From contig OX638371.1 of the NCBI GenBank assembly GCA_951812925.1, positions 82,903,697-82,967,696 on the forward strand: 64,000 bases of DNA, read 5' to 3'. The notes beneath the pieces are model-generated. The model was not told the origin of the DNA. It worked only from the letters and a program-made list of their open reading frames with translations, and made no database searches. The stretch's first letter is position 1. Each line of letters starts with the position of its first letter. This stretch comes from Calliopum simillimum (Eukaryota; Arthropoda; Insecta; Diptera; Lauxaniidae). Of the stretch, positions 1,011 to 64,000 are shown piece after piece. The position numbers and the translations under genes were made by a program.

Positions 1011-1046
1011 CTGCGATACCCATTCTGCATATTTTTCTGCAGCATT
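1011..1046 (-). CDS. Gene A microexon NAAEKYAEWVSQ (36 nt)
   Basis: Acceptor TTTACTACAG, donor GTATTT, 12 codons in phase 0, reached over a 59-nt intron. It is the last gene A exon I can find before the left edge. Confidence 0.6.
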
Positions 1047-4000
1047 CTGTAGTAAAAGAAACACTATATATAATTTATTTTTTGGTTGAAAACATTCTTG
1101 ATTACCATAAGAGCTTCACCAACTGGAATTTTATTAACAGTTCGTCGAGGATATGGTGTACTAACAGATTTCTATAAAATAAATTCTGGTTATTGTATTT
1201 GGCATGCTTCAATACATTTAGGCAAAATAATTGAGGTAAAATTAAGTTAGCAAATAAATTCATATTGAAAGTAACGTTTCAATTTAACATTAATAAATAA
1301 TAATTAATTAATTGCCTTATTCAGTATCTCAAAATGATTAAATGACTGAAAATCACTTCTTCTTCCTTAAAAATCACTTGAACTTATAATGGAGTCAGCG
1401 AAGGCATAACAGGCAAAATTAAAAAGTCGTCAAGAACAGCTCCGATTTTGATAATTTTTTTTTTTTTGGAATTTTTTTAAAGTTGAAATTCAGTCACATA
1501 TGGGTGATTCTCAGATAACTGTACTTTTTGTGTCCTCTGGCGATTTCACCCATACAGTAGGCTTTTTTTTCACAAAAAATTACGCTATAAGTTAGAAACT
1601 ATGCTTTTCTAATAGAGCGTATCAATTTTACCACCAAATATTGATTGGTCTACTTTGAAAGTTTGCAAATATACCCCAAATGTCACAAACGTGGCATGTC
1701 CTACCCCTACTTTTTATACACAAAACGATGAAAAACGACCAAAAAACGGAAATGGAACAGAAAACAAGTTACTACACATATTAAGTAAATACTTAAGGCT
1801 ACAATATTCTGAGCTCATCTGCAGTTTTAAATAATTTTTAGAGGGCACAATTTCGAATTGAAAAGTGTCCCCTAGTTTTGGAAAAAAAAAATTTCTTGAA
1901 AGCATTATGCTACTACTGCATGGTACTACTGTTTCAGTCAATAGATTGCAACACATATGCATTAATTCTGATCACTATCCATCACCCAAAGGTCAGCATG
2001 TCCAGACGCGTCCAGAAAGAAATCTGTTTGCGTTTTATAGGGCAGTTTATAAACAAAAACAGTTTTTTTTTAAAATTATGGTCACAAACGTGGCACTTGG
2101 CACTCGCAGGTAGAACATTTTATTTTATGCATGAAACAATTTTTTTGTAGGATTTGCATACATGACCCCAAATTCTTTCGGAAAAATCTTGAACTCAAAC
2201 GCGTGCTTTGCAATGAGCACAAACGTGGCACTTTTTATCAGTTTGCAAAAAACATATTTTGATATAAAGTTTGAGTATACAGATGTTAAGTTGAAGGCTA
2301 TTAGTTATGTTTTTAATACAAAAATTTTTCTACACCATCAGAATCCTGAGTTATCCTTGCTCAAAAGTGAAAAAATCACTGTTTTGACATCTACTTAAAG
2401 CTATAGAACAAAAACAACAACAAGTAAAATTAATTTTTGTCAATGGATTCAGACAGCCAAATTTATTGTCAACAAGACATAATTTACCGTTTTTCAATTG
2501 GATTCCCAGCTTCCGAGTTATACGCGTTTAAAGTAAGGATATCTTTCGATAACACACAAAGTATTTTTCGAGACCGAAAAGTTGCAAAAAGTCAAGTTTT
2601 ATCATTTTTATCAATAACAAATATAATTAGAAAAATTTCGAGACCTTGCAGACCATAATCGCATGAAAAATGACAGTTCTATGCTAGATTTGGTGAATGA
2701 CCCTACTAAACTATTGCTTTGCAAATTATCAGAATCAAAATTTCATCTGTGCATTCACTAAATCTACAACAGAGCTTTATTTTTTCATCCGATTTTAGTC
2801 TGCAAGAGCTTAAAATTTTCGTGATAAAATATATTTTTGATACAGATAATAAAACTTACCATTTTTGTTAATTTTTCGGTCCAGAAAATCCTTTGTGTGT
2901 TATTGAGAGATATCCTTTTTTTAAAGGCTAATAACTCGGAAACTAGGAATCCAATTGAAAAACGGTAAATTATGTCTTGTTGTTAATAAATTTGGCTGTC
3001 TGAATCCATTGACAAAAATTAATTTTACTTGTTGCTGTTTTTGTTAAGTAGATGTCAAAACTGTGATTTTTTCACTTTTGAGCAAGGATAACTAAGGATA
3101 CTGATGTAATAGAAAAAAATCAAGATCAGGTTCGTAATTAGGAGATCCTAATCCACCATAAACGACTATAAAAACAGTGGAAAGAAAACCATAGTTGATA
3201 TTTAGGGCGGTAGGGGATACAAAAAATGGACCTCCGGAGACATGACACTGTTGCAAAATTAGTCTTGAAGTGTAAATTTGCCATTATATGCAATATATCT
3301 CTCATCAAAACGCTTCAAAACCATCATTTTTCCATACTGTGGCTAAAATGTCACAAACGTGGCAATTTGGTCACAAACGTGGCAGAAAAATTTCTTAGTT
3401 TCGACCTCAAAGCCGTAAATTCACACTTGTTGTTGATCTACTTAAGAGGTGAGTTTTAAGAGAGTGTTTACACAAGATAGCATGAAGAAACTTGCAAAAA
3501 TCCAAAAAAATTATCTGCCAATTTTACAACTCGAAAAAGCACAGTTATCTAAGAATCACCCATATACTTATTTCGAGTTACTGATTAGGGCTAAAAGTTG
3601 ATTTTTTATAAATACCCGATCTTCACGTAGTTTGTTCAGCTCCTCTCTCTGAAAAATAAATTTGATCTTTTGTATTTTTCATAATCATATTTTTAAAATT
3701 TCTTAAAGACTAGATTGCTCTTGAAAAAGCAAACTATTTAATCGAGAAATCTGAACTATGAACAAACATTTTTTTAATCAATTCTTAACGTAACCACACA
3801 TACCAGTCCCTTCCAATATTGCCTCTTTCCTCTTGTTAGTTTCGGCACGTTGTCTGGACTATTATCCGGCTCATATTTTTTCTATAATAATCAGTAGTAT
3901 TAAAACTTTAAGATTGAAATCAAACTGAGCATTGTGCGTAAATACCTTTTGATCTCCACAAGAAGCTGTTGATGATCGTCCCACGTCCGTACGCTAAAAA

Positions 4001-7000
4001 GTAATATAATTTTTACTTATAATCGCTTCTTTTGGCGATTGTAAAAAAAGTTTCAAGTGTTTTCTTATTCTGAATCCGGGATCAGAATTGATCTATCGCT
4101 TATTGTTTTTGAGATATAATGACCTTGACATTAAAAAAACACAGAATTTTCGCTATTTTTGAGTTATATAACCCTTTCGACCCGGAAAAAAACTGTGGGG
4201 TACACAATATTTGTGATAGGTTAATCTTAGAAACTAAATTTAAGTAAAATGTTTGACCGTCTTTAAAATCAAATTTTCACCGCCAGAGGCGCTTCCGGTC
4301 TATACTCCCAACAGATGTTTTTGATTTGAATTTTCGGGATACAATGTCCTTGGAGTGGTTATAAGAAAAAACAGTGGTTTCTAAAAATTGCATTAATTTT
4401 ATTAATTCATTCAATTTAAGTGACGTTAATAACCGAGTTATATTATTCAAAAGTATTTATATAAAAATTTTTGGGATATATTGTCCCAGCCGGTTCGAAA
4501 GGGTTAACGAGGCAAAGTAAATTCTAACCGTAAAACCGGCAGCTAAAAGAAAGCTTTTTTCTTCAAATTCCAATCAGAATAATTATTATATCTGTAACTT
4601 TTTTTGTCTCTCAAATATCCTAACCTCAAATTAGGAAGTTGAAAAACATTGTTTTTTATAATTTTTGAGGTTATGTACAGAACGTACAAAATTTGTTTGC
4701 CCTTATCTTTAAACCGCATTATAGTAGGGGAGATGTGTGTACCTTGGTCCGAGTGTACCTCGGTTCGAGTGTCGGTTGAGACTCTACAGTTACACGTGTA
4801 CGATAATGTTCTTCTATGGAATTTACCACTCATACCGCTGACTGATATTAGTAGACTTCAGACCATCAAGCTGTATGCGTGTATAAAAAGTGACGGAAAA
4901 AGTGTTTTTTGTGTGTAAAAATTTGTTTTTGGAGTAAACTACGTAACGTTTTGTGAGAAACTTACTTGAAATATTTCAGTTTAGCAATATCAAGAAGGAA
5001 GTTTAGTTATTGTTTTAAGCTTTTAGTGTATTTTAGATGTATTTTCATTAATATATGTTATGGGTGTTGACAGTTTTTAAAACATATACGTACTGTCTGT
5101 GTACCTTGGACCTATGCTTATTGACCAGCGATTCTTTTTCGACGGGCAACCAGGAAGCCATAATCTCCTCTCAATAAAATATTATTATTATTATTTACGT
5201 GATTAACGTATTTATTTGCAACCATTTTTGTTTAATTAATTGTTTGCTTCTTAATGCACTTTTTTGTGTTATAATTTTTGTTTATGATTATTTTTTTTTT
5301 CTTTTATTGAAAGAAATGTTACTTTTGATTACATAATAAATGTATCTTTCATAATTTATTACCTACATATAATGTATTCTTTTTTATTTTTAATAGTCCA
5401 AGGTACACTTGCATAGTGTACCTTGGACCGTTTGAGATTGCAACAGAAAAAGTAATATTTCTACTGAATGGTAAGACATAGAAATATCATTGTCACGTCA
5501 TTTGATGCTGCAAGCATTATAGAAATATAACTTAATCAAAAAACTAAAGAATCTTTTAAGGAAAATCGGTTACCGGACATAATCCCAACGGACATAGTCC
5601 CCATTTCGTAAATTGGGATTATGTCCGAAAATTTTTCGGTCATAATCCCCATTTTAGCCATGGGGGTTATGTCCGCAAATTTTTCGGACATAATCCCAAT
5701 GGGGGTTATGTCCGAAAAATGTAATTAAGATTGAACAAAATTTTTGCAATAATCCATTTAAAAAATTTATGTAGTGTTGGATGTTATATACTGATCCGCC
5801 ACCGAAGGCCGCCGCGAAGCCGGTGTTGGATTTTTGGGAGTTTTAAACCCTGAGCTGCGGCCGCAGGCCGCCCACTTACCCCTCCTCTTATGAAAAATTA
5901 CTGTGGCTAGCAAACGAGGTGTTGGATATATTATAGACTGATTCGCGAAGCCGGTGTTGGATTTTTGGGAGTTTTAAATCCTGAGCTGCGGCCGCAGGCC
6001 GCCCACTTACCCCTACCCTTATGTAAAGTTACTGTGGCTAGCAAACTAGGTGTTGGATATATTATAGACTGATCAGCGGCTGAAGGCCGCCGCGGAAACG
6101 GTATTGGAATTTTTGGGAGTTGCAAATCCTGAGCTGCTTCTGTTGTCAATAATAAAATATCGTTATGGGGACTATGTCCGTTTTTTCCTGGGGATTATGT
6201 CCGAAACACTTGCGGACATAATCCCCATTGAAAAAATGGGGGTTATGTCCGAATAACTTGCGGACATAATCCCCATATAGTAAATGGGGATTATGTCCGT
6301 GGGGATTATGTCACGGCACCAGGAAAATCCAGCACATTAAAAAAACTGAAAAGCGGACCAAGGTACACACATCTCCCCTACATAATACTCTTCCTTGTCT
6401 CCAATATTAGCTATTAAGTGGTCATTTACTATTTTTTCTTACAAAGTTATGACAGATCTTCTAAAAAAATGGATAAAAAGTCGAGTACAAAACGAAGTAC
6501 ATTTAGGATTTTGAAATTTTTTGTTGAAAACATCGTAAAAAATTTTGGGGTACTCGAAACTTTTTTTTAACTCGCCAAAAGACTGGCGGGTTTATCCTAT
6601 AGTGTGTATCGACAAACAAACGCCCAATGCCGGACCCAAATTATAAAAGAAGAAGAAAAGACAATTCAGAATATATATTTTGTTTTTGATTTAAGCCCGT
6701 TTTCGACCGCTTTTCGATTAATCGAACAGAAAAATAGTCCATTTTCAATAATTTTTTAAACTCTGATATCAGAAAGATAGTAAGTGCCTTATATTACAAT
6801 ACTTTGATCTTTTAGCTATTAGAAAATATTATTTACCACTCCTCTTCCCCCTTCCTGTAGTTAAAAGTGTGTGGTTGAAATATACCTTGTTGATTGAACT
6901 TTTTTTTAAAAAAAAAAAAAAAATATGGGTCAAAGTCAGGTGTTCGATAAATCGAACGTTGGCCGTTAGCCAATATTACAAGATCATATACAAATACGAC

Positions 7001-10000
7001 CAAACGGGGCGGGTAAACACCTCATAGTCCGTCAGTCGATTCCAGTTGAAAGGTGCCTTCTCATAAGCCTGATGACGGATTTGAAATCAGAGGGTGTCAA
7101 TTACTCTAAAAATATGCTTTATATCAAAAAATAAAATAATTTTAGGGTTAAAATTAATTCTTTGGCTTTTATTTATAAAACCGGTTGATTTTGCTCTAGA
7201 GCGTATCTGACGAATCAAACGAATATTTATTGTACTAAAGCCCATTTGATGGTAAATTTTTTTCAAAAAATCATTATAGTACTCGATTTGTAGTACTGGA
7301 TTTATCATCAACAATAAATTATGCATCCAAATTTAGAGAGGGATCGAATGTTCAAAAATACGATTTTGAGGTTGTACCTATGCTTTGTGCAATTCAAAAT
7401 CAAATGAAATTTGCTTATTGTCCTTAAAGAAACAAAACTATTGTTCTATAAAACTTACCTGTTGTGATAGAACCCGAATTGCGGCTACGCTATTTGATCT
7501 TCTGGGTGTTAGCTTTGGTATCTGTTAAAGATTTTGTATATATGTAAGTATATATGTGTATTTTATTATATTAAATGTATTAAATTATTTCTAATCCATG
7601 TATGAAATGAACAATAAATATACCAACCTTTTGTGGTAAATTTTGAGCTGATGATGTTCTAATAACTGCTACCGAATTAATGTTTTGCTATTAAATGAAT
7701 TAAAGTTTTCATATAAGCCTTGTTGATATAGGAGAATATATAAATACTTACTCGTCGAGTTCTTCTCCAAATTTTTGCACTTTTGACTGCTCTCGAAATC
7801 AATTTTTTCTATTAAATAAGTTTTCGTTATTTTGGTTTCGATATTTGAATATACATATATGAAGCAAAACACGCCAAGTGTACCAGCTGAAAATTTTGCT
7901 GTCTCCGATTTCGCTCAACTTTGACAATATCGTAGTACTCCTGTGCAAATTTAATAATGCGGAAGGATTTAATTTTAGTACTATTTGTTGTTAAAGTACA
8001 GGGTGCTTGAGTTGGCGATTTTTATGATTTTCATAAAAAGGGTGTATTTTCAAAAATTTATAGCTTACATAAAATTTTGTAAATTGATAATTGCAAGAAA
8101 CTTATCCTATTTAATTTTAAATTTTCTTTTTATAAAAAAAACACTTTTAAAAGAAACAAATTTTTCACCAAAATTTTTTAAATTTAAAAACTCTTTTGCA
8201 TTATTAATCTTGCACATGGGTACTATGTACCATATTTCCAAATTTGATTGAAATCGGAGACAAACAAATTTTCAACTGGTAAACTTGCCGTGTTTTTCTT
8301 CATATAAATATAAATGCATATCGTTGGGTTAAAACTACAGCTAGTCATCTACATTTTTATTGTTTTAAAAAGAACGCTTTTGAAGTTTTGAAGAATTTTG
8401 CTTGGTAGTAAATATGTTAGGTAGAGTAGAACGGGGTTATGTCGTGCAGGGGGTAATATCGTGCACTGGCTGTTTTAGTCCAAGGAATTGAATGATTTAC
8501 CAACTGTTCGTAAGGTAGGGACATGCTGACCTACTGAGTTTATGCATATAATACTAGCAATTTTCACCAGTTCGTCTCTACAGAGTAACCTTTTTTTCAT
8601 AAAGTACGCTTTCGGGACGATAAAAGTGTTTTTTCATCGGGTCAGAAAAAAAATTTTCCTTGCGGGAAAATATACCAGGTAAGTGTTTTCTGAAACGAAA
8701 TATCCTGCCAAAGAAAATAAGTATTTGATTTCCAAAAAAATTTTGGGCTTCACCGAGACCATTGGGGTAATGTCGTGTACATTCACTTACACAAACACAA
8801 TTTCTCGCTACACAAATGTTGTTACACATGGATGTAACCAATGAAATTATCTTTCGATCGGATGCTTACTCGTTGCATTCGCTTGAGATGTACGGCTTTA
8901 CGAGCATGTCAAAGTTGAGTGCACGACATTGCCCCGTTCTACTCTACACAACATATTATTTTATTTACATTTTATTGAAAAATTCACAGAAAACTATAAC
9001 AAATTCCTTAATAAAAAATAAAACGTCTTTGTAAATGATGTTCTTTAATTCAAGCGCATCCTGCCGGAATATTCCAGTACCTCGAAATGACATCCCTAGT
9101 TCGGACAAAGGATAAAGCTAAGACATGAACCAATAAAGTAAATTTTGTCAAGCTCAAAGTTCATTTTTTTCTTCAAATTTCTCAAAATTCTGACAAGTTC
9201 AGTGCAACTACTCATATGTTAAATACCTTTATCAGTCTTGATCTCGGTGGTGAAATGCTTCTTATTATTATTGACGGCTGTTAAATAAGTTTACATTTTA
9301 GTTTCTTCTAAATGCAATTAAATACTAATAGAACTGGAATAGTCATATGTATAAAGTTTAATAAGGCCAAATTAAGCAATAAATTTTGACTACTTGTCTC
9401 ACAATTTAAATTAAGTATGTATGTCCTAAAGGTTCGGCAGTGCCCAACGGATTTCCGCGAATTGGCTTGAGTTTTCACAGATTCGATGCTTGTTGACAGA
9501 AGAATAAATCTCGTGAATTTAAAAATATGCACAAAACTTGCACCCGTAATTTGAGTTTATGCCCAGCAGTCTTCAAGGAGACAATTGGCACAATATCACT
9601 AGTTATTTTTGAGCGATAAAAACGTTTAAATTTCAAATTTAGCTTATGGAAACTTTTTAGATAAATGGTTTGTAAATAGTTTATTTGTTTTACTAAGAAA
9701 ACGCCTTATAGCTTATTTTCACTAGTGAAGTAGATAGTGAGTGGTAATGCAAAGGGTGACAATTGACCCCTGCCTATGACATGCTTACGTAAAGTTCGTC
9801 AATTGAGAACGAATAAAGTAGTTTTGGGAGGAACTAATGTTGCTTGCCGATGGCTAGCTATTTCGCTAGTTCGGTAATAGTTCCGTGAACTGAAGGATAA
9901 GCATAATTAGTTTTATATTTTCAACTGTGTATTTTCGCAAGTGCAGAATTTCAAACAGATTTCTGCAAACTTTTTTAAAATGTTTTAATTAATCATATCA

Positions 10001-17883: not shown

Positions 17884-17982
17884 CTGCAATTTCACTAACA
17901 TTAAATAAATTATTTTTAAAAATTTTTCTGGCTCTGTTATTAGTAATTTCTAGAATGTAGACATTTCATTACTTATCGTGAT

Positions 17983-18842: not shown

Positions 18843-18843
18843 C

Positions 18844-19720: not shown

Positions 19721-19721
19721 T

Positions 19722-22632: not shown

Positions 22633-22649
22633 TAATAAGTATTGTTAAT

Positions 22650-23066: not shown

Positions 23067-23471
23067 CTAACAATAATCAGCGTCATTTGTATCATTGAGC
23101 GCAAGTCTTCTCGGTGGAGGAGCATGAGGGTGAGCTACTCGTCGGTAAAAGGTTTGTGGTGGACAATAATTATCGTGTGGATCCCGTGCCTGCATATATT
23201 TCGGTGGTGTAGTGTGTTGACTGAAAATCGCTGCCAATTGGCTAACTCTTGGTCCTAATGATCTTCCCATAGGCACAGCAGGAATAACCAAATTTTGACT
23301 TGGTTGAGCTAATTGCTGATAAACTGGTGCTTGTGGATAATTGCCAAGATCCATTCCCCTTGGTCCCCTGTCTGCGTATTGACCAAATCTTTGCTGGAGA
23401 CATGGTTCACGCAAAACAGCTATATCCATTAATCTTCTTCTAGACTGTGGTGTCGCAGGATGACCTTCTGG
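23067..23471 (-). CDS. Gene B terminal exon (405 nt, 134 codons plus stop)
   Basis: Acceptor ATCACTATAG, then PEGHPATPQSRRR in phase 0, continuing open to a TAG. It contains GPRGMDLGNYPQAPVYQQ, then PPKYMQARDPHDNY, then HPHAPPPRRLALNDTND, all conserved in the equally long gene C exon 41811-42215. Pro/Arg/Gln-rich, no recognised domain. A GTAAGT just after the stop suggests a 3' UTR intron. Confidence 0.82.
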   Translation of the reverse strand, partial: PEGHPATPQSRRRLMDIAVLREPCLQQRFGQYADRGPRGMDLGNYPQAPVYQQLAQPSQNLVIPAVPMGRSLGPRVSQLAAIFSQHTTPPKYMQARDPHDNYCPPQTFYRRVAHPHAPPPRRLALNDTNDADYC

Positions 23472-38137: not shown

Positions 38138-38693
38138 CTAAAATTTGTATAAAAAACCAATAAATAACGCTATCTTCTTTGGGTGTTTTCTTCTAGGGGA
38201 GGGAAGTAGCCGTCCAGTTGAGCGGCCAACGCATGGTTTCGGTATTGATAAACAGTGTATTGTCGGTTTTTGTAGAGTGGACAATCAGTTTTCTAGGGTG
38301 GTTAGTGACAATTCTTGCCCTCCTTATATTTAGCTATTTATTTAGTTATCTAGAGTTATTCTAGTCTTATTAATGGCGAAATTCATATAAAAGGGTTCTC
38401 AGCACCAAATTTTTATACTCTGGACTTTCAAAAATGACATGCATCGCGAGGAGATGCGTATGTGATCTCAGTTAACGGATGTTCAAATCATTAATAAACT
38501 GTCAAAGGAACACTTAGCTGAATCTAAAGCCACTTTTATAATCAGCTGTTCGGTATGGCTAACGAGATCCATAATATTATATCTATGTATTGTAACGGAC
38601 GAAGTGGTTAGGGACACCAATGCAAATCTGCTGTTAAATATAGGAGAAGTGCGATCTACTACTAAGTAGGAAAAATTTTCAATAAAGCGTGTT

Positions 38694-38964
38694 AACAATT
38701 GAGAAGTGGCCGTACCAAAGGGCCTAAGTACCATTTAGAGGCAAAAGTAATGTCATACTTTTTATGTGCCCAATTGTCTGTTATTTGACTGTTATACTTT
38801 TTTCAACATAATGACATCAATTTCACAATATCAAGAAAATTTTTTGTGAAAACAGAAAACAATTTTATTAATTTCTAACAAAATGCCACCCGTTTCATCT
38901 TATGACACTACTTTTGCCTCGAAATGGTACTTAGGCCCTTTGGTACGGCCACTCCTCAATTGTT
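38694..38964. mobile_element. 271-bp hairpin MITE
   Basis: AACAATTGAGAAGTGGCCG and complement at the right; AAGGGCCTAAGTACC arms. The interior resembles the GCAAGTCC family. Confidence 0.65.
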
Positions 38965-41810: not shown

Positions 41811-42215
41811 CTAACAATACTCAGGGTCATTTGTATCATTGAGCGCAAGTCTTCTCGGTGGAGGAGCATGAGGGTGAGCTACTCGTCTGTAACCGGATAT
41901 TATTGGATAATAATTATCGTGTGGATCCCGTGCCTGCATATACTTTGGTGGTGTAGTGTATTGACTGAATTTCGCTGCCAATTGGCTTATTCTTGGTGCT
42001 ATTGGTCTTCCCAGAGGCACAGCAGGAATAATTAAATTTTGATTTGATGGAGCTGCTTGCTGATAAACTGGTGCTTGTGGATAATTGCCAAGATCCATTC
42101 CCCTTGGTCCTCTGTCTGCGTATGGACGATAGCTTTCCTTGAGACATGGTTCACGTAAAACATTCATTTCACATACTCTTCTTCTGGACTGTGGTGTAAG
42201 ATGGTAAGCTTCTGG
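41811..42215 (-). CDS. Gene C terminal exon (405 nt, 134 codons plus stop)
   Basis: Acceptor TCTCTACAG, then PEAYHLTPQSRRR in phase 0 and open to the stop. Same length as the gene B terminal exon. Shared blocks: ADRGPRGMDLGNYPQAPVYQ, PPKYMQARDPHDNY, AHPHAPPPRRLALNDTND. The differences are mostly substitutions, so the frame is under constraint. Confidence 0.82.
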   Translation of the reverse strand, partial: PEAYHLTPQSRRRVCEMNVLREPCLKESYRPYADRGPRGMDLGNYPQAPVYQQAAPSNQNLIIPAVPLGRPIAPRISQLAAKFSQYTTPPKYMQARDPHDNYYPIISGYRRVAHPHAPPPRRLALNDTNDPEYC

Positions 42216-54200: not shown

Positions 54201-57200
54201 GGTTGAAAAGGAATAAATTAAAATCCATTTCATATCAAACAATCAACACATATACATACTTATATGTTATAAGTAGAAGATTGAATAAAAAAAAAAAAAA
54301 CAATTTAACTAAAATTCACGAATTCCACTTAGATTCTAATATATGGTGTCAATTGAGAATTTTTTAAAATTTTTCGAACGTATTTAGAGGTTGTCTGCAA
54401 AATCAAGGCCCCTCAGGGTAAGGTAAGGTCATGATATGCCCGAACAAAGCATGCCTGTTGTAAGAGACGACTAAATAGCGTGTGACCAGTCTGAGTGCGA
54501 AAGGGCGTAGCTATCGACAGCGTTGCGCATCGAAAGAAAAACCCACAATGCCCGCAACTAGCACTGACAAGGCGAGTCGATGCCGCCTTAAAATAAACAT
54601 CTTGTCGTAATCCTGAGGCGTCTGATCCAGAGTACAAGAAGAGTTTTCAATATAATAGGGACGCCCTGAAGAACTTTGCAAGAAGGCTAAAGCTGGCTCC
54701 GAACTAAGTATTTCAGGACCTTTGCGGATTATTAATATACATAAGTGCAAATATCTTGGAATCTTTAACCGCAGCTGAATTGCAATACTATATTCTTTCG
54801 GTTAACAAATGCAATATTTTTGCTTAATATATACTTACACAAGAAGGTGGCGGAGATTGACGCAACTGGTTGACTCTGTTAACTAATTGACTGAAACTAG
54901 TGTCATAATGTGTAGGTTTCTATAATAAAAAGAATTCACATATATTTACAAATGTATACATGAAATGCTACACAATAACTGGATCACCAAAATTTTGGTT
55001 GATCGATTATGAATTACTTACGTAGTTTGTTTTTAATGTATATATAACAATATTTATTAAAAAGTTAATTTAAATGAAATTGAAAGTAAAAGTAAAATAG
55101 GTTCATAGTTGATTTTATGTTAATTAATTTTTATTCACTTCTTTTATTCCGTCTTGCTGTTTCGAGTGTATGTCGCCAACTACTGGCTTACGTTCGTTAT
55201 TTTTAAATCGTCGCTTTCTTTCATTTCGTCCATTCAGTGCTGTCTGCTTTATTTATTTTTAGTGTGTTGTCCTGTGTTTCTGTCTTACCCAAATCGTAAG
55301 GATTTGACAAATGGGAACTTTCGAATGATTTCGACTATCGATAGATAGTAACTGAATGAATTTGACTATCGAATGATTTTTTTCGTTCATGAACGATTTT
55401 ACTGAATGATGTTTTCTGGCAAATTCCCTCATTTAGAATTCATATCATTCACTAAAATGAGGTACTAAGGATTTATTTTTTTAGTATAAAATGTATAGCC
55501 GAAAACTTAAGAAAATATGAATTATTTTATTTAAAATTTACTAAATTCACTTAGCTAAGAGATCATTTATTAAGTATATATAATACACGGAGAGAAAAAA
55601 ATGTTCTAAAATCTATCTCAAATCGTTCTTAAATTAAATATTCAGAATTAAGCCCAATATAGCATAAAATCATCCCAAAATACGCACAACTTGTTCGCAA
55701 TTCAAGCTCAAATTTGGGCATAATATAAATTTTGATAATTAAGACCAATTGTACTCAATGCATGCCAGTCAGGAGTATTTACTCTGTTATAAATACCCAA
55801 TTCGACTGTCGAGCAGGAATTATTTAAGCAGTAGATGACATAGTCATATTGAGAATCATAAACACACAGAATAAACACAAATGAAAATTTATTTTTTGAT
55901 AAACAATCACAAAAGGGCTTGAATTAAGCAAAAAATGGGCTTATTTATTTTTTTTGATAAACAAGTACAAAATGGCATGCATTGAGTACAATTGGTCTTA
56001 ATTATCAAAATTTATATTATGCCCAAATTTGAGCTTGAATTGCGACCAAGTTGGGCGTATTTTGGGATGATTTTATGCTATATTGGGCTTAATTCTGAAT
56101 ATTTAATTTAAGAACGATTTGAGCTAGATTTTAGAACATTTTTTTCTCTCCGTGTAAATCAATTAATGTTGCCAATGGCGTCTTCTGTGCATTTTTTGAA
56201 CTTTTTTTAGGTTACGATATTTCGGAGAAAAATAAAGATATCGATATAGATCAGAGTGAGTTTTAAAGAAAAAGAATAGAAATTTTAAAAACTTTACCGA
56301 GTTTTATGATGAACAATTACCTGGTCCTGTCATATAACTTCAAAAGTGGTGAAAAAACCATACATGCCAAAATTTCAGGTTAAAATATCTAAAAATTCAG
56401 AAGCGACAAAGCAATTTCAAAACCAGATTCGGATTTAGCATCAAAAAATACATTAGAACTGACTATTTTTGTTTCTATATATTGATCATTATTTTTTTTG
56501 TACGCAAAAATTAAATTTTTCAATAGAAAGTCAAAAATTTAAGTAAAAATGCAATATATCGTAAACGATATTAGTTAGAATTTTCGAACTTACAGTTTTT
56601 TAATTTACAATTAAGCAGAAAATTTTTTGCATACTAATTTTTTGTATCCAATTTAGTCAAACTTTTTTTTTGGTTTTAGTACAGAGTACCGGGCTTAAAA
56701 AATGTTTTTTTCGGCCCTGGTTTGAAAAAGAGCCGTTCACTTCGATAAAAGAGCTATTTATGTTTCATCTTAAAGTCATTATACACATTTTCCCGAAAAA
56801 ACATTTTGGGTGCAAGCACTTTTTATTTAAAACACATGGGGAGGGGTGTGTATAATTATATACATAATTACGTAAAATTTACAAAATGTTTCTTTTAGGT
56901 TGACAATGAAGTTATAAGCCGGGTATACAATGGGCCCAACTGCGGACTAAATTATGATGGCACGTGTCATCTCCCGTGCTAACCAAACATATAACACTTA
57001 AAAAAGGGGACAGGTTAGCTCTTGATGTAAAAAATACAGCGAAAGTGCGCTCACAATTTTTGTTAGAAATATCGTGAATACAAGGTAGAACAATTTCGAA
57101 GTGGAATTTCGGCATTTGTGATACTTTCGGTAAGACATAGTTTATTTTCTGAATAAAAACTTTGCTAAAAATATCTCACTCCTCTTCAAAACATAGAAAT

Positions 57201-60200
57201 AAAGCACATGCAAATGCCTCAGCTTCTGCATCCTGTGGCAGATTTCTCATTGTGGACGAAAATTGTGAAAGATGCTTCTGCCATAGAATCATGTCTACTT
57301 GTGTACGTACGTAGATGGAGATTTCCCTTAACATTTAATGCTAAAATTTTGGTTTTTGTGTAGGAATTGCAGGCTTTCTTTCTTCTTTTTAATAAAAACA
57401 CACAACACACTGTACTTTTTAGTTTCTCAACTATTCATTTACAGACTTATTTTATTTTATTTTATAATATTATTTATATATTTGTTCTTCTTTCTATATC
57501 AGCTTTTCTTTAACATCTTTTATACTATTCTGTTCTTTTCATTGTCTTCTTACTTCTTACATGTCCGCAGACAACAGTCTTCTTCAAGTTCTGAAATCAA
57601 CTACTACTCAGTTCAACTGTCGTTTGTTCGTTTATTCAAAATCTATACGTCATGTTTGTTTCGTTAAAGTCTCGTTCGTTTTGTCAGTGCTGCCAAGTCG
57701 TCCGTTGGGCTCCGTTCCCATTTTTGTTTTATTGAAAGTTTGATTTTGAATGAACATTGTAATTTTTAGCATACCGGAATAAAATTTTTTGGTCATTAAA
57801 CATACTCGTAGTATGCCTTGACATTTCCAAATTGACACTTAGGCATCGAATTGCAAACAAAACTTTTTTTAAAGTATAATTGTAAAGAAATTCGTTGATT
57901 AATCTACTAGCAAATATTGTCAATTAAGTTTGTGATTTTTTTGTTAAATTTTATATGTACACCAAATTTGCAACTCCACAAGAGAGACATCCCTTAACAA
58001 ATGCAGTAAAAACCAGCATAATTAAATTATAATGTCAAGCTCTGTTAATTTTTGGTTTGGCTCCTCGTGAACCAAATTCATTTCAATGTTGAGTTCTTGG
58101 ACTTAGATATTTTCGAAAAAATGGATCCATTCATTTCATTTTCAATGGAAATTGATATTAATAAGAAATATATTGATTATACTTACAATCGCTTCTGGGG
58201 TCGGACACACAAGTTCATTTGGTGATAGTTCTATAGACATGTTTCTCCTAGAAGGTGAAGTCTACAAAAAAAAAAAAAAACACAATTATTCTTAGCAACT
58301 AAGTATGAACTTATGTGTATTATCAAGGATTGGAAGGATAACTGACTATATATTTTGGTAAAAATAGACAAATAGACAAAGCCAGACGTATTTCTTAGTA
58401 AAATATAAGAAGCAAAACACGCCAAGTATACCAGCTGAAAATTTTTTTGTCATCAATTTCGAATGCTTTGGAAATATCCTGAGCAACAATCTTACTTTCA
58501 CAAAAAATACCATCAGGTCACCGGTACTACAAGATCTATGAAAACCATATTGGCGATCACTAAGAAATTCGTTGTGCTCCAAATAGTTCAAAAGGTGAAA
58601 GTTAATTATCTTTCCATTACTTTGGATAACGCAGAGCATATTGCAATGGGGCGGTAGTTGCTTATCATATGTGGTATTTCCTTCAAAAGTATGAAGCAAA
58701 AAACCATATGTGGCATCTCCCTAGTAGGGATGTGCCCTTTTCGAAGTTGATTTCAAACTGACATGGCTTTTTCTCCCAATTAAAAACCCTATATGAGTAC
58801 CATTCTTACACATCACATGTGTCTATATGCGTAGGTAGAAAAAACATGAAAAGTTCAATATGGAAAAAATTCGGACATGTTACCTTTTCGAAATTGGTGA
58901 TTCAATTGAAGATACGGTAAAAAATATTTATCGCATTCCAATTTGTTTTCTCATACAATCCGTTTCGGGACTTTAGAAGAAGCAGCGCGTGAACTAGAAT
59001 AAGGAAAAAAGGCGGAAATGGACCAGTGGCCCGAGTTTAGAAGAGGTGCAGAAGACCGGGTCGATTTTGTATGAAGAAAAATAAAATCATGCCGAAATTG
59101 ACTCAAAAGTTGGAAAGACTTTTAAGAACGATATCTGGATATTTTTTTTTTTGTTCATTTTAAGAAAAACCAATGGAGCACTTTTATTTCTGCTGAATGC
59201 CTATTTTGGCTAAAAAACATATTTTTTTATCTTTTTATTTCATTAGAATATGGATACCTACCCAATCGATTTTTTTACGTTTTTCAATAACGAGGTCGTA
59301 AAAACGATTTTTTACTCAAAAGCAAAGGAACTCACAAGAAAAGTGTATAAGGCAATAAATGCTTAGAATTGTTCAAAGAATACGTGTGAACTTTTTCAGA
59401 ATTTTGGAATTTTTTTGTTTAAATATAGAATTTAAGTGGGTTTTTTGGATAGGCGGTAGGTGTGTTCGTTGGCCGATTTTGTTAATTTTCAATCTCGGAG
59501 ACTAAATTCAATCGAATTACCTTGCTTAGTTTTCCTGTGAAAAATATTTCAACGGAGAGACATACAGTTTGCCAGTCAGACGGACATGGCTATATCGACT
59601 CAGGAGGTTACATTGATGAAGGCATTCAACATACTTTCGCATACCTGACACTCCTACTTCTCTGTGTTACATACGCAAGGACAAAATGAGTATATATCTG
59701 GGTGTAGGGTACACAAAACTTTTTAACTAAAACAAATAAAATAAACTATGAAAATAACTGAAAGGAAAACTTACTCCATATGTCGCCAATTCATCTTGAG
59801 TCAGTGTCATACTCAGTCTTCTTGGATCCTAAATCATAAGAATGATTATTATAAAATTAAATTGTCATTAATTCAAATATAACAAGATTTAACTTACATT
59901 TGTGCTTGGCGAAACCTGGGTTGAAAAAGAATAAATTAAAATGCATTTCATATCAAACAATCAAAACATACAATAATTATCATATAACATATTATATTAT
60001 ATATATTATATTATAAGTAGTAGATTAATTAAAAAAAAAAAAAAAAATACAATTTTTTTGAAAATTCTCGATTTCCCTTTAAATTCTGATATACATATGG
60101 TGTCATAAAAGTTAGTTGAGAATTTTTTCAAATTTTTCGAACGTATTTAGAGGCTGACAAGACAAGTCAATGCCGTCTTAAAATAAGCATCTTATCGATA

Positions 60201-63200
60201 TCCTGATATCCAGGTCTTAATAATTAAATTTACTTAACCATTTTTTTAATTTTACTTACACATTGCGCATATGAGCTATCTGCAGAATCATCGAACGCTG
60301 CAGATCTATCGCATGTTGTATTGGAACTCTGTTGATGAAAATATAGAGCCATTTAAAACACATAGGCGCATAATCATAGTCAAAATAAAGCACACTTTAA
60401 GATCAGTAAAATATGTTTTTAAATAGAGTATGTTTTAAGTCAATCATAGTCGATTTAAAGCACACTCTATCGCTAAAAGTATACTTCAACTTTAAAATGG
60501 GAAAAAGCTGTTGCTAAAACAGTTAGCAATCTCCAAAAACAGAAAAATGTCACTTCATGAAAATTTTCAGTGTTTTGAATTTATGATTTTGTGTAAAAAA
60601 ATATCAAAACCTTAAATTTTTGAGAAACTGCAAGAGATTTCGATTTTGTTGTATATTATTTCATATTTCATATTGGGTAAAGATTTGGAAAAACCACAGC
60701 GCATTGTTTAATTGATGCTTAATATAATATTAAAGGTATTCCTGTCCCGATAGTCCTACAAGCCCTCTCTACTTTGGGATTTTTTGGAAGCAACCCTTTT
60801 CTGCACCGCTCGGGTTCTGCTTACATTTATTTTCTTTAGTAAATAATTGTATAGTTATATTATTAATTTGCTTTCTTTTATTTTATCTATCATTGCCAAA
60901 CAGCCATTCCATGCCTAGCGTAACAAGATCTGCCAAACCCTTTCCGATTTCGCTGAAATTTGGTACATGGTTTCGTTTCATGTCCAAACTTTGGGAAATG
61001 GCAAAAAAAAAATTTGCGATTTTTTTTTTTTTGTCTTGAGAAGGGGTGCAAAAAGTGGAAAAATCGGTAAAATGTGACAAACTCTCCTCAAATAATTGCC
61101 AATAACTTGGCCATTACTCAACCGATTTTCATGTTTAAAACTGTTTTGGAAAGGTATTAAATCAGGCTATAAGCCTGTAGTTGATAAAAAGTAATAAATT
61201 TACTACTATTTTAGTACTAAACTGCAAAAAACGTGCCCAGGTACACATTTTTTACCTTCCAAAATATATTTCTTGGAAAGAAAACAAATAATCTTTCAAA
61301 TGAAAAAGAGGGAAAATTGGTATGTATCAAGGCTTAGAAGTTATGATTTTTTGAAAATTTGAAAAAGAGGCCCATAACTGGAACATTTGTTGACCTATTT
61401 TCATGTTTGGACCATTTTTAGAATGGTATGCGCACAAAGTAAATTTTTAGTGTATGGTAAAAAGTACAAAATTTACTACTATAGCACCTGTTTTCGACCT
61501 TCCAAAATATTTTTCTGGAATAGAAGACAAAACCAATTTTCACATGAATTTTATGGTATACGAGTAATGTTTTTTTGAACATTTCAGTATATGCAATAAT
61601 TCGTATTATGTAAGTTTTTTTGTAATTTACATCATTTTAAATTCCTGAAAAGATTTTTAAAAGGAAATACGTCGTGCTGCAATACGGTTACGTCCTAAGG
61701 GACTTAAAAAAAAATTGGTATCGACGCGGCATGACAGTTTCTCACCGAAAAGGGCCTTGCATTCGTATTTGCGGTTCCTTTAAGCAAAATGCTTGAAGAG
61801 CAAGAAAGCAGAGACCTTACCAAAGCCAAATATTTGATGCTAAGTTACTTTTTGAATGAAAAATAGTAAAAAGTCCGATACAGTTTACCGATATTGTACA
61901 ATTGATGCATATTAAGGAACTGCATCACAACTAATGTAACGCTTTTTTACCAGGGACCCAAAAATTTCATAATTTTGTTCCCTTACGACGTAACCGTATA
62001 GCAGCACCGCGTATTTCGTTTTAAAAATCTTTCGAGGAATTTAAAATGATGTAAATTACAAAAAAACTTACATAATACGAATTATTGCATATACTGAAAT
62101 GTTCAAAAAACAAAAGAAATTTGTATTTTTTCAAATTCAGTAATTTTTTTTTTTTTTTAATTTGACATGAAAATACAAAAAAACTCTCTCAGTTGATTTT
62201 TTTCTCTCTATTTTTGCAAAGAGTTACCATATTGGATTGTTTTCTGCTCAACATAGTCGCATCTTCGTAGAACATGCTCTAAGCTGACTATGGTAGTTGC
62301 AGAACTAAAGTATACTCTATCTTTTTAGTATTTTGCTAACAGAAGCCGGCTTTTATGAGGGACTATGATTATGCGCCATACAATTTTATCAATTCATTAA
62401 TATTCGAGGTGATATCACCTCTTAAAAAATGTATATTTCTATTATATCAGTTTCAGAGCTTTTTTTCAAATGAATATGCATGGTTGCTTAAAATTTCATT
62501 AAAATATTTAAATACGTTTTTGAGAAAAAGCTTAGGAACTGATATAGAAACATGCATTTTTAAGAGCTGATATTTCCGAAACTATAATTTGAATGAAACT
62601 AGATTTTATACAGATTTAAAGGACATTGAAAGATGAAACTGTTATTTAAAATATAACTGTGAAAGTAACCGTTATCGAGTTATTTAAAAAAAACTGATTT
62701 TTGTGACCTTTGACCATAAATTTGGGCATGCTCCGCCACATTAATTTGTAGTCATTTTTGACAGGAGTCTTCTCTTATGATGTAGTTTTGATTGATCTTT
62801 GTTTGAAAGAGTAAGTTTTTAGATGCCGTTAACTCCTTTATTTGTCGACTTCTTCAGCTACAGTTGCAAGCACTAGTGAAAAAGGGGTTATCTCAAGAAC
62901 CTTAAACCGGGTTGAATAACCGAATCTCATATCAAAAGTTCGTACTTATTTTTAACCCCAACCATACGTTTTTTCGTGCGGAAAGTTAATCTTTTCCAAA
63001 AACGGCCCATTTTTGCCACTCTAATAGTCACACTGTTAATTTATTTAATTTTTATTATTTTTTTTTTTTTTTTTAAGGCAGAACTTGGGAAATTATAAAT
63101 TTGATTTCATAATCGAATTTTCTCTAAACTTTACAAAAAATTTAATAACTATAACTACACCGTTTTTTTTAAATATTTCTGTGCAAAGTTGGCAAAACTA

Positions 63201-63569
63201 AGTATTGAGCAATTTTTCTGAAAATGAGTTATGTAGTGCAGGGTATTGCTCACGGTGAGGTCTACAAGCTACCAAATCTAGATTTGCTCTATGGCTTGTT
63301 GTTCTTTAGAAAAACAACTTGAAAAACCAGATAGTTTAATTTTTTCATATCATCTAAAAATTTAAATTTGCTCTCCTGAAAAAAATACGAAAACATGCGA
63401 TACCTAGTTTTGCCATCTTTGTGCTGATTTAATGTAATAATTTTAAATTACGAAGATCACACATTTGCAAAATATTGAGATCTCCAATATTAAATATGCT
63501 GATATTGAACTGAAAACTTACATCTTCACTATCCCACTGCATTCGTAGTTGTCTCACATATTCCATTAG
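41811..63569 (-). CDS. Gene C: acidic microexon gene, 5' end beyond window
   Basis: Unrecognised minus-strand paralogue of gene B. From 5' to 3' the exons seen are 63569-63522, 60328-60260, 59915-59898, 59828-59775, 58261-58187, 54919-54839, 54197-54180, 54015-53968, 53243-53196, 51856-51809, 50314-50267, 49699-49682, 48823-48779, 44978-44937, 43040-42879 and terminal 42215-41811. Each is a multiple of three and open in phase 0. Three exon types recur: L-type (LxxF...SxxED, 45-48 nt), V-type (18 nt, V-P/S-x-x-TN) and DT-type (48 nt). The window ends at AAAACTCAC on the plus strand, which reads as another donor, so at least one more exon follows to the right. The product is acidic up to the conserved Pro-rich C-terminus. 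The start, and any signal peptide, are outside the window. Confidence 0.72.
42230..42740. repeat. Possible MITE with TGTCCGAC motifs
   Basis: TGTCCGAC(T/A) occurs at about 42370, 42403 and 42707, with relatives at 42510 and 42540. Ends are not defined. Confidence 0.35.
42879..43040 (-). CDS. Gene C acidic exon (162 nt, 54 codons)
   Basis: Acceptor TATTAACAG, donor GTAAGG, open in phase 0. Reiterates units like CYEPEDQE and CYEPIDQEECD. The Cys/Tyr/Glu/Pro repeat may be prone to unequal exchange. Counterpart of 25478-25633. Confidence 0.78.
43181..43300. mobile_element. Short hairpin MITE, GTTAAATATCAAAAC family
   Basis: TGTGTCGTTAAATATCAAAA and its complement 120 bp apart. Confidence 0.6.
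43560..44410. repeat. Imperfect hairpin repeat, shared with 59000-59440
   Basis: TTTTTCAATAACGAGGTCG and ATGCTTAGAATTGT are paired with complements at 43990-44110. The same block occurs near 59270-59420. Confidence 0.5.
44937..44978 (-). CDS. Gene C YE-type microexon TTYDDDDSCEDYYE (42 nt)
   Basis: Acceptor TATCATTTTCAG/ACGACG, donor TATGAG/GTAATT, 14 codons in phase 0. Its start matches gene B exon 29692-29751 and its end matches the 24-nt YE exons. Confidence 0.72.
45465..45543 (-). mobile_element. mini-me/DINE-like terminal fragment
   Basis: GCCACGCCTCCTTCTCTGCG to ACCCTGAGTGTAGGGTAT, matching the left end of the 11021 element in reverse. Confidence 0.5.
46039..47102 (+). mobile_element. 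Non-autonomous Helitron with ~122-bp tandem repeats
   Basis: 5' TCTATCTATATATATAAAA and 3' hairpin GCCTAGCGAAGCGGGC...CTAG, inserted between A and T. Six units of about 122 bp, each with AAAACGAAGAATATCT (46201, 46324, 46468, 46591, 46713, 46837). Confidence 0.7.
47175..48074. mobile_element. TA-flanked MITE, GGGGAATCGTGGG family
   Basis: Ends GGGGAAGGTGGGGAATCG and complement with TA. The motif recurs as GGGGGATCCTGGGCCACC, GTGGCTCACGATTCCCC and similar. Its first 14 bases resemble the end of the DD37E relic at 22632. Confidence 0.7.
48779..48823 (-). CDS. Gene C L-type microexon LNDFVQGLNLSSDCD (45 nt)
   Basis: Acceptor ATATTTCTAG, donor GTAAGT, phase 0. One codon shorter than the other L-type exons. 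Confidence 0.7.
49167..49492. mobile_element. 326-bp TA-flanked MITE
   Basis: GGGTGACAGTTAAA and TTTAAACTATCACCC with TA on both sides. Confidence 0.65.
49682..49699 (-). CDS. Gene C V-type microexon VPRSTN (18 nt)
   Basis: Acceptor TTTTTAAAACCAG, donor GTAAGT. The most diverged of three V-type copies. Confidence 0.6.
50267..50314 (-). CDS. Gene C DT-type microexon DTTGGGSQLDENAGCN (48 nt)
   Basis: Acceptor TTTGTCAAAAG/GATACA, donor GTAAGT, phase 0, 16 codons. Confidence 0.7.
50398..50422 (-). pseudogene. Dead SGC-type microexon, donor lost
   Basis: Good acceptor CATTTTTCAG and exon-like TCAGGTTG start, but TTAAGT stands where GTAAGT should be. The same lesion is present at 32867-32897. 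Confidence 0.6.
50880..51730 (+). pseudogene. Tc1-like relic, split by a mariner
   Basis: The plus strand reads LELKNEGKTIRKIAKEMKCS, a Tc1-type N-terminal HTH. The sequence breaks at 51101 and resumes at 51710. A related copy lies at 53417-53880. Confidence 0.6.
51103..51707 (-). mobile_element. Internally deleted mariner, 605 bp
   Basis: Ends CAGGGTCCGCCATCTAAC and CAGGATCCGCCAAATAAC with TA at 51101-51102 and 51708-51709. The minus frame joins the first ~20 transposase residues directly to the catalytic part (KIIFSDEAHF, then frameshift, then CFQQDGATYH); the C-terminus is missing. Confidence 0.8.
51809..51856 (-). CDS. Gene C L-type microexon LNNFVQGLDLSSECED (48 nt)
   Basis: Acceptor ATATTTTCAG, donor GTAAGT, phase 0. 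Nearly identical to exon 48779-48823, including several hundred bases of the flanking intron. Confidence 0.72.
52273..53102. mobile_element. 830-bp hairpin element
   Basis: Arms of about 400 bp around a centre near 52690. The outer ~130 bp (GGTAGCAAAGTTGAAATTC and complement) are nearly perfect and spell CGGCGCGAGCGAACACG at their inner edge. Confidence 0.8.
53196..53243 (-). CDS. Gene C DT-type microexon DTTGDGSQLGEDLTGD (48 nt)
   Basis: Acceptor CTTGTCAAAAG/GATACA, donor GTAAGT, phase 0. Closest to exon 50267-50314. Confidence 0.7.
53417..53880 (+). pseudogene. Tc1-like relic, uninterrupted copy
   Basis: Starts TATAGTGATGGAAAAAATA; the HTH remnant LDLKYEGKTRR is followed by a stop. It runs through CCATATTCCATTTATTTCG where the 50880-51730 copy carries the mariner. 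Confidence 0.55.
53968..54015 (-). CDS. Gene C L-type microexon LEDFARRQGLLSDCED (48 nt)
   Basis: Acceptor ATATTTCTAG, donor GTAAGT, phase 0. Ends SDCED like its siblings. Confidence 0.7.
54180..54197 (-). CDS. Gene C V-type microexon VSPCTN (18 nt)
   Basis: Acceptor CTTTTCAACCCAG, donor GTAAGT. Second copy of the V-type. Confidence 0.65.
54390..54780. repeat. Non-LTR-like fragment
   Basis: GCATGCCTGTTGTAAGAG with CGACTAA, then a GC-richer stretch with open frames on both strands. The phrase is one I associate with fly non-LTR retrotransposons; the family is not certain. Confidence 0.35.
54839..54919 (-). CDS. Gene C exon (81 nt, KPTHYDTSFSQLVNRVNQ...)
   Basis: Acceptor TTTATTATAG, donor GTAAGT, 27 codons in phase 0 ending in ...SPPPSC. 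The middle reads like a short amphipathic helix. Confidence 0.65.
55130..55560. other. Unassigned gene C intron
   Basis: Pyrimidine-rich sequence possibly from a retroelement leader; ACTATCGAATGATTT is repeated at 55320-55400. No gene seen. Confidence 0.3.
55585..56155. mobile_element. 571-bp near-perfect hairpin
   Basis: ACACGGAGAGAAAAAAATG and complement; arms of about 185 bp with only a few mismatches and a loop of about 200 bp. Confidence 0.8.
56156..58186. other. Gene C intron, mostly unassigned
   Basis: 56195-56480 is one arm of the giant hairpin type seen at 11113-12987. 57440-57740 is T-rich and could be a retroelement leader. No exon found. Confidence 0.35.
58187..58261 (-). CDS. 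Gene C exon (75 nt, TSPSRRNMSIELSPNELV...)
   Basis: Acceptor TTTTTTTGTAG, donor GTAAGT, 25 codons in phase 0 ending in ...CPTPEAI. Confidence 0.65.
58440..58690 (-). pseudogene. Non-LTR reverse transcriptase fragment
   Basis: Minus strand reads NYRPIAICSALSKVMERII, then LLNYLEHNEFLSDRQYGF, then after a frameshift VAQDISKAFE. These are consecutive RT blocks of non-LTR elements. The fragment is abutted by a piece of the GAAGCAAAACACGCC MITE. Confidence 0.75.
59448..59712 (-). mobile_element. mini-me/DINE-like repeat fragment, uninterrupted
   Basis: The minus strand runs from the ACCCTACACCCAGATAT end through CACCTCCTGAGT-like sequence to GATATAGCCATGTCCGTCTG without the hairpin found at 11113-12987. 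Confidence 0.6.
59775..59828 (-). CDS. Gene C microexon DPRRLSMTLTQDELATYG (54 nt)
   Basis: Acceptor TTATGATTTAG, donor GTAAGT, 18 codons in phase 0. A 69-nt intron separates it from the V-type exon. Confidence 0.65.
59898..59915 (-). CDS. Gene C V-type microexon VSPSTN (18 nt)
   Basis: Acceptor TTTTTCAACCCAG/GTTTCG, donor GTAAGT. Near-identical copies, with their flanks, at 54180-54197 and 49682-49699. Confidence 0.65.
60260..60328 (-). CDS. Gene C exon (69 nt, SSNTTCDRSAAFDDSAD...)
   Basis: Acceptor TTTTCATCAACAG, donor GTAAGT, 23 codons in phase 0 ending in ...SSYAQC. Ser/Asp-rich with two Cys. Confidence 0.65.
60363..62378. mobile_element. ~2-kb hairpin element with nested hairpin
   Basis: GGCGCATAATCATAGTC at the left and its complement at the right, with ATA on both sides. 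Inside, 61570-62105 is a second palindrome (TACGGTTACGTCCTAAGGG and related complement). Confidence 0.65.
62383..63521. other. Gene C intron, unassigned
   Basis: Contains GAGGTGATATCACCTC, a small palindrome at 62406, and further AT-rich repeat-like sequence. No exon recognised. Confidence 0.3.
63522..63569 (-). CDS. Gene C L-type microexon LMEYVRQLRMQWDSED (48 nt)
   Basis: Acceptor ATATTTCTAG, donor GTAAGT, 16 codons in phase 0. Flanking intron sequence (ACAGATTTTGATTATT on the plus strand) is shared with the L-type exons at 48779 and 51809. Confidence 0.7.
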
Positions 63570-64000
63570 CTAGAAATATATACACAGATTTTGATTATTA
63601 TTTTATTTTTTTTTTGCAGAAAATGTAAGTATTCTGATTATTAAATAGTTTTCATGAGTGCAACGTCCTAAAAATGGTATATAAATATTGGATATTGAGA
63701 TATTTGTAATTAAGTAGAACAATCTTTGCAACGAAGAGGTATTGCCGCAAAGGCCATAAACTTAGTACGTGCACAATATGAAGGCTTTAAATGCAGTGTG
63801 TTACACAACGGGTTGTTGTCACCGACATTCACCACTAATTCAGGCGTACGGCATAATGTGATTTTCGGAATCAGCAGCCGATTTTACATATAATATGAAT
63901 TCAATTATGATTTTAGCTGTAAACTAATATAGTCGAAGTTTTTCTAAACTGTACGTAAATTTTTTTAACTATAACTACGGTTAAGAAGTAAAACTCACTA

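Follow-up and report, generated by a model that had tools for sequence, protein, structure and literature searches.

Tandem exon duplication is known from Dscam and from the PEVK region of titin, and the neural microexons of Drosophila are isolated exons in neuronal genes. Almost all internal exons of the aphid bicycle genes are in phase 2 (PMC9168663) and their proteins carry an N-terminal secretion signal (PMC13041983); schistosome micro-exon genes (MEGs) have symmetric exons of 6-36 bp that make up ~80% of the coding region and encode secreted or membrane-anchored products (PMC5825161); and at the Srrm234/eMIC neural microexons of Drosophila the 3' splice sites are extremely weak and those at the 5' side weak (PMC8797185). 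Here a 64,000-nt stretch (the window) was analysed from the acalyptrate fly Calliopum simillimum (Diptera, Lauxaniidae), a host outside the aphids, phylloxerans and scale insects, at positions 82903697-82967696 of contig OX638371.1 (C4 among the 334 contigs of the 690-Mb assembly). To judge from the genomic sequence, the window most probably belongs to a single-locus, one-strand array of fly genes built of symmetric phase-0 microexons.

The survey covered 264 kb, the window plus 100 kb on each side, and window numbering was extended beyond 1-64000 for positions outside it, negative values lying left of the window. An initial annotation had proposed two acidic paralogues, B and C, and one basic gene, A, on the minus strand. 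Genes B and C find support over their whole length in their paralogy: each has a 5' untranslated region (UTR) exon, an exon ending in ATG, a run of phase-0 microexons and a terminal exon of 405 nt, with the poly(A) signal at equal distance from the stop. Noncoding exon 1 ends with CTGAATAACTG followed by GTAAGT at 39304 in B and at 107517 in C, in a conserved B/C block; the B exon was set at 39304..39360, with an exact 3' end and a guessed 5' limit. Exon 2 (46 nt, 38137-38092 in B and 106294-106249 in C) begins after AG with GATAATTGG and ends with ACTAAACTATG before GTAAGT in both genes; it comprises 43 nt of 5' UTR and, as its last codon, the ATG (38094-38092 in B, 106251-106249 in C). The 5' probe matched two places in the genome, and the terminal exon has two copies in the 690 Mb. 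Phase 0 runs directly into both terminal exons (23471-23067 and 42215-41811, 134 codons each plus the stop), as had been claimed. Each lies in a 90% identical B/C 3' block that starts 18 nt before the exon and stops ~40 nt past an AATAAA, whose distance from the stop codon is 372 nt in B as well as in C. Gene B spans ~39.4k to 22.65k and gene C ~107.6k to 41.4k, the first half of C being outside the window. The B model has 14 coding exons, 12 of them internal (340 residues), and the C model 43, of which 41 are internal (791 residues); the coding fraction of the gene span is 6.8% and 3.7%, respectively. Internal coding exons are mostly 18-75 nt, introns have a median of ~1 kb (minimum 75 nt for B and 68 nt for C), and GTAAGT is present at 44 of the 55 model donors, a figure biased by candidate choice.

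The grammar of these exons was evaluated by strand and by length. At the loosest of three score settings, 31 distinct phase-0 segments bounded by AG and GT[A/G]A (donors other than GTAA/GTGA having been dropped before counting, with GTAT retained for family building) were present on the minus strand of the window and 8 on the plus strand, as compared with 7.2 ± 2.7 (maximum 14) in 60 dinucleotide-preserving shuffles; the two stricter settings gave 18 versus 5 and 9 versus 1. A frame-free census was made of AG..GT pairs of 15-120 nt, frame ignored, at four score settings. With acceptor scores >= 2 and donor scores >= 3, lengths with remainders 0/1/2 on division by three numbered 18/2/5 (minus) and 6/1/12 (plus) in the window, and 72/15/18 (minus) and 18/17/27 (plus) in the 264 kb; the remaining three settings gave a minus excess in the same direction. 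The minus excess of multiples of three in the 264 kb has a chi-square p of 1.7e-13, calculated over duplicated exons that are non-independent. The plus strand of the window is also uneven in thirds (p 0.008), but there it is remainder 2 that is in excess. The minus-strand grammar described in the initial annotation is confirmed, its excess over the plus strand and the shuffles being strong.

The 264 kb contained 430 candidate exons, 302 of them on the minus strand. Under the rule that the AG and GT positions must align between two copies, 34 families resulted, 28 minus-only, 2 plus-only and 4 mixed, with 118 members on the minus and 9 on the plus strand. The four largest (16, 13, 11 and 9 members) are all minus-only, and some small ones seem spurious. 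In the alignments of these four families the flanks are conserved and the exons variable. Frame-blind profiles of nine minus families gave minus/total hits of 22/22, 14/14, 14/15, 9/9, 14/14, 15/15, 6/6, 4/4 and 13/13, some copies being counted by two profiles and the sole plus-strand hit having an expectation value (E) of 0.15. In seven family groups all 75 copies are open, a multiple of three in length and bounded by AG and GT, pairs of identity < 65% having been dropped from this count, which leaves outside family 9, the mixed-strand families, smaller families and weak profile hits. Nine of the 75 came from the frame-blind profiles, and seven of these nine never passed the frame filter. DNA similarity also revealed four held-out copies at 82.656-82.673 Mb, 131-147 kb beyond the 264-kb survey, which had contributed to no model; all four keep the frame and follow one another in the cassette order seen elsewhere. 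The seven frame-blind copies, the four held-out copies and the frame-free census are the fair part of the frame evidence.

Neighbouring homologous exons with aligned splice sites, which mark tandem exon duplication, were found together with runs of short, single-phase, multiple-of-three exons, the symmetric-microexon layout. In gene C a five-exon cassette is repeated in order, some repeats being incomplete; it consists of an 18-nt VSPGAM-type exon followed by exons of the PNNVQQRIDQVSNAQD and LLEYVKGLRMQWDSED types, one that ends in SYAQC, and one of the DATADGSQLDDNSPCD type. Exon-bearing DNA is tandemly duplicated at 91290-92475 and 97530-98699 (94% identical), and a 2841-bp tandem duplication (144037-146877 versus 146872-149712), 99.97% identical, may be very recent or an assembly artefact.

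Genome searches with DNA modules, which report lower bounds and skip very common words, located the array in a single interval. All 18 matches of the 13-member-family module and all 14 of the 16-member-family module lie on the minus strand of C4 at 82.656-83.324 Mb, and the two matches of an E-region module are both in the E region. These three modules and the 5' probe, four in all, gave no dispersed copies and stayed in one interval and on one strand. The array spans at least ~670 kb and appears to hold at least genes B, C and D as well as the A and E regions. The limits first given were therefore too small, C itself running to ~107.6k, and the three genes named at the outset (B and C supported as paralogues, A likely) are part of a larger one-strand array with D and the E region. 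More than 40 segments had been counted in the window, a number that holds roughly if weak ones are included; the models place 14 coding exons of B and 16 of C there, besides 8 candidates chosen for A.

According to the proposed mechanism, B and C would begin with the short 5' UTR exon and the exon with ATG as its last three bases, continue through 12 (B) or 41 (C) internal exons, and be spliced to a single terminal exon encoding a conserved basic tail. Since every exon is 0-0, a duplicated, lost or skipped exon would leave the frame intact, alternative inclusion being conceivable, and the genes grow by tandem duplication of exon-bearing DNA. Splice information would be largely intronic, in near-perfect GTAAGT donors and conserved flanks, leaving the exon interior free to change. 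The translated product would have an acidic N-terminal stretch and the basic tail, perhaps with a scaffold- or regulator-like role.

In comparison with the known systems, the locus resembles the bicycle genes in its many unusually small single-phase internal exons, its large lineage-specific family and its fast evolution, and differs from them in phase (0 instead of 2), in the lack of a detected signal and in the insect order. Like MEGs it has short symmetric exons that could be skipped without loss of frame, whereas among the 41 internal exons of C just 12 have a length of at most 36 nt (median 48 nt; 5 of 12 in B), and its product seems to stay inside the cell. It is set apart from both by its phase 0 and by the absence of an evident signal peptide, and the likeness to bicycle genes drawn in the initial annotation is one of layout only. 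As compared with the eMIC microexons, it shares very short exons and a fly host, but has near-consensus donors (selection-biased) and short exons over nearly the whole gene. A series of homologous symmetric exons from tandem duplication recalls Dscam and titin PEVK, but duplication here extends to cassettes of several exons and to entire genes, and the exons are acidic or basic, of low complexity and without a known domain.

Several points weigh against the array reading. The exon models are derived from genomic sequence, donors were chosen by score, and exon lists were pre-filtered for frame, which builds in much of the 75/75 result. Gaps within exons are multiples of three in just 18 of 33 cases (29 of 154 in the flanks), and some model exons have no copy. 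Decay occurs, donor-dead partner relics accompanying 6 of 10 family-0 exons, and a ratio of nonsynonymous to synonymous change (dN/dS) of ~1 in several families is also expected of unconstrained sequence. The cell location depends on an absent signal peptide judged without a predictor, and an AlphaFold prediction of the tail (two sequences), with a mean predicted local distance difference test score (pLDDT) of 49, says little.

The gene ends bear on whether the locus could instead be one giant alternatively spliced unit, in which B, C, D and A exons would be choices served by several promoters and terminal exons, with Dscam-like diversity. The shared strand and phase 0 would let any exons join, sets of acidic exons take turns with basic ones over the length of the locus, and the start of gene A was not found; B, however, has 5' exons and a poly(A) signal of its own in the proper order, and so has C, for which separate genes are the simplest fit, and a giant unit is in our opinion unlikely. 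Equally doubtful is an extension of the array reading to a diversity-generating locus of at least 670 kb, with at least ~100 interchangeable, frame-neutral exons that splicing, under an intronic code and without regard to gene limits between neighbours, would combine into a multitude of disordered acidic/basic proteins, the exon stock being renewed by continuing cassette duplication and loss under diversifying selection.

The products of the B and C models have an overall isoelectric point (pI) of ~4.1 and a 134-residue tail of pI 9.4-9.5, and they start with MDDSFFDDTM and MDSSGYEDYA. A signal-peptide start was considered for both and discarded, none being evident, by eye and without a predictor, in the models or in a scan of the 264 kb for hydrophobic ATG exons (13 on the minus and 8 on the plus strand, none seen recurring). 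The protein search, which needs shared 5-residue words and annotated proteins, gave for the B tail minus its first residue 7 candidates, none with E <= 0.001, and for the full C model none that reached E 0.001 among the best 7992 scored candidates (those with most shared words). In a COX1 control many named flies were among the best 120 of 7998 matches, and fly entries are thus present in the database. The COX1 of the host, taken from a 16.2-kb contig of the assembly, is 98% identical to those of Pachycerina decemlineata and Homoneura picta, both Lauxaniidae, and at most 97% identical to the other flies among the matches listed. COX1-family matches in the assembly itself lack TGA codons on contigs C211, C219 and C326, perhaps bacterial contigs, and contain them on C50 and C58; two on C2 resemble nuclear copies. 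In Pfam the C model had four matches, all below the cutoff, and the B and C tails none, and a PDB search found no match for the tail or for the first 399 residues of C. The products are probably disordered and intracellular or nuclear, with an acidic part containing Tyr, Ser and Cys and a basic C-terminus, the simplest location being inside the cell because no signal peptide was seen. Secreted effectors or salivary proteins like those of schistosome MEGs or bicycle genes would account for symmetric microexons, fast change, a paralogue array and the cysteines and tyrosines of the acidic part. But no signal-peptide exon was seen, the exon next to the ATG exon is acidic in B as in C, with no other conserved block between the two, and lauxaniid larvae are mostly saprophagous, so that a secreted role is quite improbable.

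Exon loss is visible. Ten family-0 exons of B and C were inspected by eye: upstream of 2 of them a partner exon with its donor persists, upstream of 6 there is a relic that has lost the donor GT, and the other 2 have neither. In the relics, upstream of 97418, 90317, 76651, 66499, 50314 and 32793, the donor GT is replaced (CTTAAG or ATTAAG), which is exon death by donor loss; living partner copies stand beside these at 30440 and 103408. Differences between B and C affect 53 of 402 sites in the terminal exon and 20 of 406 in the 3' flank (p 4e-5), the exon having changed faster than the neighbouring untranslated sequence with its frame kept. For the terminal exon dN is 0.151 and dS 0.125. The dN/dS estimates, which pool non-independent pairs without a statistical test and drop identical exons, are 1.25 for the 13-member family, 1.21 for the GSQ subset, 4.7 for the 18-nt family, with few sites, and 0.20 and 0.25 for two small families; they suggest that some of the exons diversify while others are constrained. 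An array of former genes, now neutral and with exons still visible, would explain the values near 1 and the relics. It agrees poorly with the two low ratios, with a terminal exon that outpaces its flank yet stays in frame, and with the lack of any stop or frameshift in the 75 copies (partly built in) or the four held-out ones, and is very unlikely. A transcript built from repeats, such as a long noncoding RNA, with exons open by chance, is more improbable still: the exons are indeed very short and the intron flanks conserved, but the multiple-of-three excess arose without a frame filter, the held-out copies are in frame, and both B and C have 134-codon terminal open reading frames (ORFs). Exonised copies of a transposable element, which repeated modules, a repeat-rich region and transposase-like ORFs might suggest, are nearly refuted by the confinement of the four modules, in searches that give lower bounds and skip very common words, to one interval and strand of 690 Mb.

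Within the window, by our own tally, 10 B and 13 C exons of the gene array align with a copy at the acceptor, the donor or both (at the acceptor side alone for 29751 and the terminal exons), and seven were placed by the grammar or weak matches (30440, 28547, 27539, 26917, 59828, 58261 and 54919). All are on the minus strand. Gene B continues after exon 2 with DDSFFDDTM (36421..36447), whose splice sites align with C and D copies, ERSDEGYE (35601..35624) and PSSICEYE (34497..34520), all three of the 11-member family. Then come HSTPHRSQMDVMDATF (33623..33670) and DTTADESDFEEYSTFD (32746..32793) of the 16-member family, the genome matches of the latter module all being in the locus. The less well supported SGCYDTCELD (30411..30440) has the grammar and a donor-side profile match (E 0.035); donor-dead relics occur at the equivalent place upstream of six sister exons, and a 75-nt intron separates it from DTAGSDGLDWDVSSIHGGD (30279..30335, 16-member family). 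TTCEDDEVFEDNDESSYYLE (29692..29751) has its acceptor aligned with C 44978-44937 (profile E 1.9e-7). Weak candidates are YDPNRLGFP (28521..28547; acceptor side matching a gene D family, E 0.0017) and ASRAHRCMDCMNPARN (26870..26917; 16-member-family profile, E 0.017), and between them the candidate PLNQHYCPRHADIPDREIDDIR (27474..27539) shows the grammar, no copy having been found. The acidic exon QQVCDEPAEEEEC..EPEEYG (25478..25633), aligned with C 43040-42879, precedes the terminal exon (23067..23471).

The window part of C begins with LMEYVRQLRMQWDSED (63522..63569), of the 13-member family like LEDFARRQGLLSDCED (53968..54015; 18 genome matches, all in the locus), LNNFVQGLDLSSECED (51809..51856) and LNDFVQGLNLSSDCD (48779..48823). 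To the 16-member family belong SSNTTCDRSAAFDDSADSSYAQC (60260..60328) and DTTGDGSQLGEDLTGD (53196..53243), and to the 9-member family the 18-nt microexons VSPSTN (59898..59915), VSPCTN (54180..54197) and VPRSTN (49682..49699). Candidates recognised by the grammar are DPRRLSMTLTQDELATYG (59775..59828, after a 69-nt intron), TSPSRRNMSIELSPNELVCPTPEAI (58187..58261) and KPTHYDTSFSQLVNRVNQLRQSPPPSC (54839..54919). DTTGGGSQLDENAGCN (50267..50314), absent from the frame-filtered candidates, was retrieved by a frame-blind profile (E 5.4e-21). TTYDDDDSCEDYYE (44937..44978; 11-member family, B counterpart 29751) and the acidic exon ELEYPRGQCYEPEDQ.. (42879..43040; B counterpart 25633-25478) lead to the terminal exon (41811..42215).

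Intron blocks are also conserved between B and C, at 29568-29681 versus 44426-44539 (84%) and 25700-25872 versus 43261-43430 (83%), and are possible splicing or regulatory elements; the first was rejected as an exon since a stop in B interrupts the frame that is open in C (by eye). Upstream of the ATG exon a conserved block with a TATA-like stretch (38140-38700 versus 106300-106904) is possibly a second promoter. A 454-464-bp element is present three times at 36479-37935 (97-99.8% identical, one copy inverted), upstream of the first acidic microexon of B. A tandem array with a unit of ~123-144 bp occupies 46150-46932, and a transposase-like ORF with a weak Pfam match (0.069) lies in a C intron at 51266-51595 (-).

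Gene A is likely real, as proposed, but its ends were not found. Its eight candidate exons in the window (minus strand, 1011..17620 region) were picked from a longer list. REELNKLREDR (33 nt, 3616..3648) is the single one with family support, in a 4-member family with copies at -18379, -24372 and -37075; the candidates 17620-17585, 17363-17310, 17255-17223, 14957-14892, 7521-7459, 1171-1106 and 1046-1011 show the grammar. Left of the window, basic 30-33-nt exons of the A region (KTARQLQQEEE and ARQNAMKAQE types) form three recurring pairs, each separated by an intron of 68-80 nt, and exons of A-type basic composition in the 264 kb number 12 on the minus strand (one in D) and 0 on the plus strand. 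A transposase-like ORF in the A region (15697-16479, +) matches the Pfam DUF4817 helix-turn-helix (E 5.9e-12), and a repeat element occurs inverted at 5562-6328 and 14005-14547 (90-94% identical in the main blocks, with internal 48- and 131-bp repeats). No Rfam family or tRNA was found in the window.

Region D, right of C, contains VHATF, TLYDD and related exons, then basic exons, and then a candidate terminal exon (111336-111085, -) of 83 codons plus stop, in which TPSPRN is repeated. There is a resemblance between the end of this exon, SRAKQLASAFCKYNNP, and the tail of C, PRISQLAAKFSQYTTP (in single BLASTP comparisons, E 2e-4 for D against C and 0.017 for D against B), a motif spotted by eye with search patterns written afterwards; the D terminal exon is thus modestly similar to that of C, to judge by these alignments. 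A whole-genome search with the D and C end pieces matched D, B and C and no further place; built from D and C, the query informs on further places and not on their relatedness. The E region, left beyond A, contains exon pairs of its own.

Among the best-ranked matches listed in a literature search in which subscription journals are sparsely covered, no comparable locus of a fly was found, in agreement with the earlier statement that no fly equivalent had been described. What would be new is a microexon-gene architecture in a fly, with phase 0, no evident signal peptide, intronic splice signals, and visible gain and loss of cassettes. To our knowledge, the known microexon gene families encode secreted parasite or gall effectors. 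If the array reading is true, this design for fast-changing proteins would have arisen independently, perhaps outside host manipulation, and the locus, for which two protein searches of a fly-containing database gave no relative, may mark a gene class missed by standard annotation.

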